Below, piece after piece: positions 41,248 to 42,528 of a stretch of DNA of 57,045 bases (its first letter is position 1; every line of letters starts with the position of its first letter). The notes below the pieces were generated by a model, which was not told the origin of the DNA, made no database searches, and saw only the letters and a program-made list of their open reading frames with translations. The position numbers and the translations under genes are program-made. The stretch is taken from contig CAISEB010000027.1 of the NCBI GenBank assembly GCA_903884235.1, forward strand, positions 1 through 57,045. Direction: 5' to 3'. Origin of the DNA: an uncultured Pseudomonadota bacterium. Its GTDB lineage: Bacteria; Pseudomonadota; Gammaproteobacteria; Steroidobacterales; Steroidobacteraceae.

Positions 41248-42528
41248 TCAGGTCTTCGGCAGCGTCACGCCCCGCTGGCCCTGGTACTTGCCGCTGCGAT
41301 CCTTGTACGACGTATCGCACACCTCATCGGACTCGAAGAAGAGCATCTGCGCGACGCCTTCGTTGGCGTAGATCTTCGCGGGCAGCGGCGTCGTGTTCGA
41401 GAACTCGAGCGTCACATGCCCTTCCCATTCGGGCTCGAGCGGCGTTACGTTGACGATGATCCCGCAATTGTGGACGAACACGCCGGCCTCGAGCGCAAAG
41501 TTCCCGGCCTCGGGAACCGTCAGGCAGTACACGTCGTGGTCTCCCGCGACGGGACGGATCGACGCAACCTTGTGATTGCGGATCGAATGCCGCTCGGCGC
41601 GGAAGCCACTCGCTCGATTCGCGGCAAGGGCAGACTTGCTCGCGACCGAGCGACTAGCGAATGCGAAGCCCTCTTCGCCTGACGCGCGCAGGCGAGCATG
41701 CACGTGCCGGATGGCAGGCGGGGAGCTATTTGCGAGGTCGGATTCGGCGTGCTGGCGGCTCTCGCCCACCAGCCCAGCATGGACGCCATTGCGCACTTTC
41801 CACTCGTCGGCGAGAACGCGGATTGCATCCAGGCGACCGTTCGATGGCTGGTACACCAGATCGTGGCCGGCGCGCACGTGCCGATAGAGCGGCATCAGCG
41901 AGTCCTTCTCGCGAAGGTCGCCCGCCGAGACCATCAGTCCATCGCGCGTGAGAAACAGGTGGTCCGGCGTCGCGCGAATGACCGCGCCGTCATCGAGCGC
42001 GATCTCGAGGAGCGAGTCCCTTCCGATGAAGCGCGGCGCCTCCAGCCGGGCCAGGATGACGCGCCCACGGGCATCAATGCTGTAACCTAAGAAGACCTCT
42101 CCCGACTCCGCACGTCGCGCCATGTCTTCCAGCGACGCGCTCGCTCCATTCGCGAGCGCGACACGCGTATCGCCACTGAAGCAGCGGGCATACGTGGACT
42201 TGCCGACACAAACCGTCAGCGTGCTGCGCGGAATGCGAAAGTACTCGACCGTGCGCGCGAGCGCGAACGAATTCGGCGGGATGATGCAGACGTCCGCGGT
42301 GATGTCGACGAAGCTCTGCGGATCGAACGCCTTCGGGTCGACGATGGTCGAGTTGATGTTCGTGAAGATCTTGAACTCGTTCGCGCAGCGCACGTCGTAG
42401 CCGTAGCTCGAGGTTCCATACGAGACGATCTTGCGACCGTCCACGCTGCGAACCTGGCCGGCCTCGAACGGCTCGATCATGCCGGCGGCAGCCTGGCGGC
42501 GGATCCAGTGGTCGGACTTGATGCTCAT
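41248..42528 (-). CDS. dcd: dCTP deaminase interrupted by an in-frame intein
   Basis: A 426-residue precursor. Residues 1-115 and 355-426 together make a 187-residue dCTP deaminase of the Pseudomonas type, which converts dCTP to dUTP for dTMP synthesis. N-extein: MSIKSDHWIRR, SSYGYDVRCANEFKIF, and the active-site loop GKSTYAR (Ser111, Arg115). C-extein: CGIIVNVTPLEPEWEGHV, then the catalytic Glu in TLEFSN and GQRGVTLPKT. The 239 residues between are an intein with no frame break. Splicing must occur to make a working hexamer or trimer. Downstream of mrp by 54 bases. Confidence 0.95.
   Translation of the reverse strand: MSIKSDHWIRRQAAAGMIEPFEAGQVRSVDGRKIVSYGTSSYGYDVRCANEFKIFTNINSTIVDPKAFDPQSFVDITADVCIIPPNSFALARTVEYFRIPRSTLTVCVGKSTYARCFSGDTRVALANGASASLEDMARRAESGEVFLGYSIDARGRVILARLEAPRFIGRDSLLEIALDDGAVIRATPDHLFLTRDGLMVSAGDLREKDSLMPLYRHVRAGHDLVYQPSNGRLDAIRVLADEWKVRNGVHAGLVGESRQHAESDLANSSPPAIRHVHARLRASGEEGFAFASRSVASKSALAANRASGFRAERHSIRNHKVASIRPVAGDHDVYCLTVPEAGNFALEAGVFVHNCGIIVNVTPLEPEWEGHVTLEFSNTTPLPAKIYANEGVAQMLFFESDEVCDTSYKDRSGKYQGQRGVTLPKT
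41467..42183 (-). other. Intein in dCTP deaminase (239 aa)
   Basis: The insert begins with Cys116 (block A CFSGDTRVAL) and ends with FVHN, followed by Cys355 as the +1 residue. Block B is IRATPDHLFLTRDG (His75 of the intein); block F is VYCLTVPEAGNFAL; block G ends in His-Asn. All residues needed for class 1 splicing (Cys1, block B His, penultimate His, terminal Asn, +1 Cys) are present, so it should be active. Intein residues 100-165 look like a worn HNH endonuclease. By eye, three rows of the insert are 63-68% G+C, against about 83% in one row of the neighbouring mrp gene. Confidence 0.93.

Follow-up and report, generated by a model that had tools for sequence, protein, structure and literature searches.

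The window, by which we mean the whole 57,045-nucleotide stretch of DNA that was analysed, raises the question of why its dcd gene, a single open frame on the reverse strand (41248-42528), encodes 426 residues from its ATG, and what the 239 residues that separate the two halves of a dCTP deaminase (Dcd) are. A sequence-only reading had assigned the insert to positions 41467-42183 and taken it for an intein, and both its coordinates and its anatomy prove exact. As can be seen from the translation, the insert starts with Cys and ends with His-Asn before Cys, directly after Arg115 of GKSTYAR, a motif with catalytic roles; in E. coli Dcd its Arg takes part in catalysis. Setting the insert aside leaves, as had been anticipated, 426 - 239 = 187 residues of continuous Dcd with the GKSTYAR motif, and TIGR02274 (dCTP_deam) spans both flanks in a profile search. 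The extein joint resembles that of intein-free congeners, and the insertion is clean, with no target duplication at the dcd junctions. The features are collected in Table 1.

Table 1. Coordinates of the dcd gene, its intein and their parts, and of the double-intein dcd genes of related genomes
Feature	Coordinates	Strand	Basis
dcd gene with intein, 426-residue precursor	41248..42528	-	open frame; TIGR02274 E 8.8e-39, PF22769 E 6e-29
N-extein, Dcd residues 1-115, ending VGKSTYAR	42184..42528	-	frame; TIGR02274 and PF22769 matches
Intein, 239 residues, Cys1 to Asn239	41467..42183	-	PF14890, TIGR01445, TIGR01443; predicted Hint fold; all 24 scan relatives inserted at this point
N-terminal splicing part, intein residues 1-109, with Cys1 and block B T72-P-D-H75	41857..42183	-	alignment A1; mostly pLDDT >90; cut at 109 is the author's choice
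Linker left from the endonuclease region, residues 110-202; 139-199 predicted disordered	41578..41856	-	93 residues versus 229-230 in full-length family members; pLDDT <50 at 139-199
Wrecked HNH core, intein residues 141-166, ESRQHAESDLANSSPPAIRHVHARLR	41686..41763	-	compared with consensus THRHHxDxxRxNNxPWNIxRM (alignment A1); core pattern absent
C-terminal splicing part, residues 203-239, with block F DHDVYC and block G His238-Asn239	41467..41577	-	alignment; TIGR01443
C-extein, Dcd residues 355-426 and stop, starting with Cys+1 (CGIIVNV)	41248..41466	-	TIGR02274 positions 107-179; joint compared with empty relatives
Double-intein dcd	L013:1105-3804 (G065); also L095 (G009), L102 (G102)		LAGLIDADG at GK/S and shortened Dcd-a at R/C

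Splicing Domain of the Insert

Searched on its own, the insert, which opens with CFSGDTRV and closes with GVFVHN, scores above the cut-offs of three splicing profiles, namely Pfam PF14890 Intein_splicing (E 1e-15, 58.3 bits, cut-off 35.8), TIGR01445 intein_Nterm (E 2e-9, 38.3 bits, cut-off 24.5) and TIGR01443 intein_Cterm (E 1.2e-4, 22.2 bits, cut-off 15.6), and phmmer against PDB sequences places DnaE inteins on top (best E 2.2e-7). An AlphaFold2 model based on an alignment of 25 inteins has a mean pLDDT of 78.1 and a pTM of 0.71, with 126 of the 239 residues at pLDDT 90 or above and residues 139-199 below 50, and the best PDB matches of the predicted fold in Foldseek are inteins: 1zd7 (E 4e-9), 4kl5 and 2in0. 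The 239-residue insert in Dcd is an intein. Its Hint domain is found by sequence and by predicted fold alike; the sequence-only reading had recognised blocks A, B, F and G.

Class 1 inteins have Cys or Ser at position 1, TxxH in block B, a terminal Asn and Cys, Ser or Thr at +1. The window intein has the whole set (Cys1, T72-P-D-H75, Asn239 and Cys+1), and the PF14890 match together with the predicted fold, which matches solved inteins, places it among the class 1 inteins with a Hint splicing domain. Among 51 distinct inteins at the same site (Dcd-a), Cys1 is present in all, as is Thr-x-Asp/Glu-His in block B, with Ser before the Thr in G024. Block G has His ahead of its terminal Asn in the window and in 27 of the 51, and Arg, Lys, Ser, Leu, Ala or Gly in the rest; a residue other than His is unusual at this place.

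The class 1 mechanism consists of attack by Cys1, transfer to Cys+1 and cyclisation of Asn. Applied to the window protein, the precursor would fold its Hint domain and Cys1 would attack the bond to Arg115, after which the chain would be transferred to Cys+1 and Asn239 would cyclise, so that the Dcd halves would join as STYAR-CGIIV to give a 187-residue enzyme. The intein very likely still excises itself from the Dcd precursor. We put the probability at about 93% that it is a cis-splicing intein of the class 1 type at the established Dcd-a site (STYAR/C) with a decayed HNH homing endonuclease, a reading carried by the sequence blocks, the predicted fold, the site, the loss of the endonuclease, the pattern of selection and the search of the assembly for a second dcd, each set out here.

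Loss of the Homing Endonuclease

Full-length relatives of about 376 residues contain an HNH core, THRHHxDxxRxNNxPWNI, and full-length Dcd-a inteins have, downstream of this core, a segment GSIRGAARxLxCDRSVFRRFPE which we take to resemble a DNA-binding helix pair. The corresponding HNH stretch of the window reads ESRQHAESDLANSSPPAI in alignment A1; it lacks the leading His of HH, the latter Asn of NN and the Asn that should follow PW. The SIRGA segment is absent from the window intein by alignment and motif comparison, and a profile search of the insert gave no Pfam HNH match. Pfam HNH_3 recognises only 3 of 26 aligned inteins, and the endonuclease label elsewhere rests mainly on motif and alignment. 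By motif, the HNH core is intact in 24 of the 51 distinct Dcd-a inteins and absent in the window. With core and SIRGA segment both missing, the window intein falls outside the homing inteins with an intact endonuclease: judged from these motifs it has lost its HNH homing endonuclease, and we infer that it would now be unable to home. The sequence-only reading had passed over this decayed endonuclease.

Erosion and Selection across the Family

Within the family of the source organism (f1, 217 genomes), 37 genomes match the intein profile at E 1e-5 or better, 32 of them with the intein located in Dcd and five, more weakly, elsewhere in other large ORFs (G007, G012, G052, G054 and G134, E 2.8e-8 or worse). 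A class-wide sample has an intein in 4 of 369 genomes, the window's own included, at a threshold of 1e-30 that all 32 family copies would pass, and the family is therefore rich in the Dcd-a intein. Twenty-six of the 32 are shortened to 190-307 residues, four keep the full length together with HNH core and SIRGA segment (G084, G099, G132, G133), and two keep it with altered motifs (G016, G047); the HNH core survives in seven. Between the window and its nearest copy, G109, identity is 92% in the extein, 83% in the splicing parts and 31% in the linker.

Nei-Gojobori dN/dS ratios were computed for 14 chosen pairs, not for all pairs, and every pair with all three ratios follows the order extein < splicing part < linker. 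The linker of the intact full-length pair G132/G133 is constrained (0.095), as expected of a working endonuclease, and that of the altered full-length pair G016/G047 gives 0.114. In the recent eroded pairs G018/G028, G018/G030, G028/G030 and G021/G024 the linker ratios are 1.00, 0.69, 0.57 and 1.43 and those of the splicing parts 0.24, 0.28, 0.18 and 0.25, with exteins at 0.04-0.12; after recent erosion, then, drift of the linker is close to neutral and the splicing blocks stay constrained. Where one member is decaying, as in G031/G047 and G031/G036, the linker ratios are 1.17 and 0.98. Comparisons with the window itself are rough, dS being high: with G109 (dS 1.5, near saturation) the ratios for extein, splicing part and linker are 0.039, 0.081 and 0.493, with G102 0.087, 0.109 and 0.420, and with G100 0.081, 0.150 and 0.376; with G105 the extein ratio (0.039) is the only one computable. 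Distant eroded copies cannot be aligned reliably in the linker, and the low linker ratio of the distant pair G105/G102 (0.118 at dS 5.2), which runs counter to the trend, is not to be trusted; G109/G105 yielded no splicing or linker ratio. Taken alone, the window intein stands at a late and unremarkable stage of the intein life cycle. Its family is a single bacterial family in which full-length, half-decayed, eroded and empty alleles coexist and selection can be measured at every stage, and this allele series makes the homing-cycle model testable in bacteria.

Two Intein Sites in dcd

The dcd gene of G065 (L013) contains another intein, at GK/STYAR and of LAGLIDADG type (PF14528 E 8.4e-19). 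This slot b (GK/S) is filled in at least 15 family genomes, only the stronger matches having been examined, and three genomes of three genera, G065, G009 and G102, have both slots filled, with STYAR as the whole middle extein. Their slot-a inteins measure 196, 191 and 263 residues, that of G102 keeping the HNH core, and their slot-b inteins 411, 411 and 393. Scoring was possible for 186 of the 217 genomes, in the other 31 of which dcd was missing, truncated by the end of a contig or under the cut-off: dcd is uninterrupted over the cut-off in 142, occupied at slot a only in 29, at slot b only in 12 and at both in three. We considered whether a slot-a intein shields dcd from slot b and discarded the idea, since three doubles are seen versus 2.6 under independence (relatedness uncorrected). 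We lean, with some reserve, toward regarding dcd of this family as a two-slot intein site, slot b (GK/S, LAGLIDADG) and slot a (R/C, HNH) lying five residues apart, and the window as its single-slot state with a dead endonuclease. In the double carriers a Hint domain would have to splice on each flank of a five-residue stretch containing the conserved Arg. The passages available to us quote natural double-intein spacings of 85 and 48 residues (PMC8966425) and call haloarchaeal intein sites close without giving a figure (PMC10643990), and a limited literature search found in such passages no stated case of a closer spacing, which is weak evidence. If both inteins splice, theirs would be the closest natural intein spacing so far described within that search, and the double carriers would offer a natural test of splicing order and of how near two splicing domains can work. 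The slot-b intein also has matches outside dcd. One of them is in the window's own genome, in a second intein-bearing gene, which encodes the replicative DNA helicase DnaB interrupted by an intein of LAGLIDADG type (L212:335-3019, contig C13).

History, Persistence, and Alternative Explanations

The tree of the splicing parts (51 rows, 146 columns) has 15 of its 48 inner branches starred and its bootstrap is not settled; it groups the six Dcd-a inteins of the window's genus (99/94, starred) with full-length G099 outermost, and at least 10 changes from full to short are needed on the whole tree. The neighbour-gene tree joins the empty G106 with the occupied G109 and G105 (100/100), the empty G101 with the occupied G100 (100/99), and G107 (slot b) with G102 (both slots; 100/99). 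Carriage at slot a must have changed at least four times on the dcd tree (13 genomes) and at least five times on the neighbour-gene tree (14 genomes); both trees are unrooted and poorly resolved, the dcd tree being the weaker, and gain and loss of the slot-a intein in the genus are indistinguishable on them. The intein probably entered the genus at full length and with its HNH endonuclease, a state still seen in one congener, and would have lost its endonuclease once it had settled. Because Dcd would survive hardly any loss of the intein except a precise, in-frame one, the intein would persist, and the splicing parts would remain under purifying selection as the linker drifts.

How far the cell depends on splicing turns on whether another dcd exists. 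In a TIGR02274 search of the window's own assembly (4.12 Mb, 59 contigs, 95.14% complete, which could hide a copy) we found no second, uninterrupted dcd; such a copy supplying the function is what the earlier reading had named as fatal to its proposal. The three matches are the two halves of the window dcd and one locus at 28.7 bits (L005), which was rejected as a second Dcd on the grounds that it is a dUTPase (PF00692 E 6.4e-37). Dcd function in the source organism therefore most likely passes through splicing. The further proposal that dTTP supply depends on splicing is plausible but goes beyond the evidence: Dcd is one of several bacterial routes to dUMP and is dispensable in E. coli. ThyA is encoded in the same genome. 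Elsewhere in the family, G208 has two uninterrupted full-length dcd matches, on contigs C287 and C267.

These data also bear on why the insert is there at all. The intein might be kept as a domesticated switch, with conditional splicing (e.g. redox control via Cys1 and Cys+1) regulating Dcd; conditional splicing is reported for other inteins (PMC5790916, PMC6195587), and 26 of the 32 family copies are shortened yet retain their splicing blocks. We consider this improbable, since close relatives differ in whether dcd is empty or occupied, which fits an element that can be dispensed with, dcd is uninterrupted in 142 of 217 family genomes, and the need for Dcd by itself accounts for the constraint. 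That the insert stays, unspliced, in a working Dcd is less probable still: Cys1, Asn239 and Cys+1 are kept, the insert lies directly behind the conserved GKSTYAR motif with its catalytic Arg, the splicing parts are under purifying selection, and the phage CL131 relative at the same site splices, according to passages of PMC6293099. The fragmentation of the source assembly into 59 contigs could suggest an artefact of assembly or frame, but one clean frame runs through all three parts, and the identical insertion occurs in all 24 scan relatives and in 31 further family genomes (some overlapping with the scan), which leaves this the least credible explanation. An intein that very likely still splices, with a decayed endonuclease, remains our reading of the insert.

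Comparison with Known Systems

A scan of genome collections, seeded with the window's own peptides and so reaching close relatives only, returned 24 inteins, all inserted at STYAR/C of dcd and 51-69% identical to that of the window (alignment A1). By their titles the records belong to gamma- and betaproteobacteria, other Proteobacteria, Gemmatimonadetes, the Chloroflexi and related groups, and in one case to an unclassified bacterium. The shared insertion point, together with common ancestry of the splicing parts as indicated by identity and tree, makes the window intein a member of Dcd-a. The recurrence of the site in other Dcd proteins, which the sequence-only reading had suggested looking for, is thus seen in 24 of 24 scan relatives and in phage CL131. 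Three viral loci with the GKSTYARC context (L129, L132, L159) occur among the best 80 of 214 encoding a relative. In L129:2436-3386 a dcd on a viral contig contains a Dcd-a intein that shares 48% identity with the window intein and is much nearer to it than that of CL131; L129 is possibly a phage vehicle or a misassigned bacterial contig. Phage and plasmid records also contain related splicing domains, weaker relatives, in genes other than dcd, e.g. in gyrB on a plasmid, so that the tie to dcd holds for the close lineage only.

That inteins in dCTP deaminase are seldom described, as first supposed, holds in that few cases are in the literature, but CL131 and two bacterial cases had already been described, and in the passages reached by a limited search we found no further Dcd intein beyond PMC6293099 and its citations. 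Five other papers retrieved as candidates (PMC5371798, PMC7019647, PMC7412058, PMC4853749 and PMC6390638) deal with subjects other than a Dcd intein in the passages concerned. Gp069 of Aphanizomenon phage vB_AphaS-CL131 (MG209611) shares with the window the insertion point GKSTYAR/C...N/CGII, the splicing blocks and the HNH-type lineage. It differs in that its intein, 33% identical and 352 residues long, has an intact HNH core, is phage-borne and has been shown experimentally to be excised, the protein purified from E. coli running at about 25 kDa versus 23.8 kDa predicted without the insert (passages of PMC6293099). The bacterial cases, one proteobacterium and one chloroflexus, are attributed there to MacGregor et al. 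2013 and likewise have an intein in a bacterial dCTP deaminase, a likeness known from the citing description only (PMC6293099).

The best NCBIfam match of the insert, NF052663 (an intein-containing RtcB family; 121.2 bits, E 5.7e-35, residues 1-239), points to a related splicing lineage in another host protein, the score being far under the 1050-bit whole-protein cut-off, as it should be when no more than the intein part is matched. Mini-inteins, as described in passages on GyrB of Desulfonema (PMC6390638) and haloarchaeal MCM (PMC10643990), have kept the splicing domain and lost the endonuclease like the window intein; they differ in their host proteins, and the MCM inteins have lost a LAGLIDADG endonuclease whereas the window has lost an HNH one and keeps a 93-residue decayed linker. 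Inteins at the Dcd-a site are thus known already, and the window adds a further example, with a decayed HNH endonuclease.
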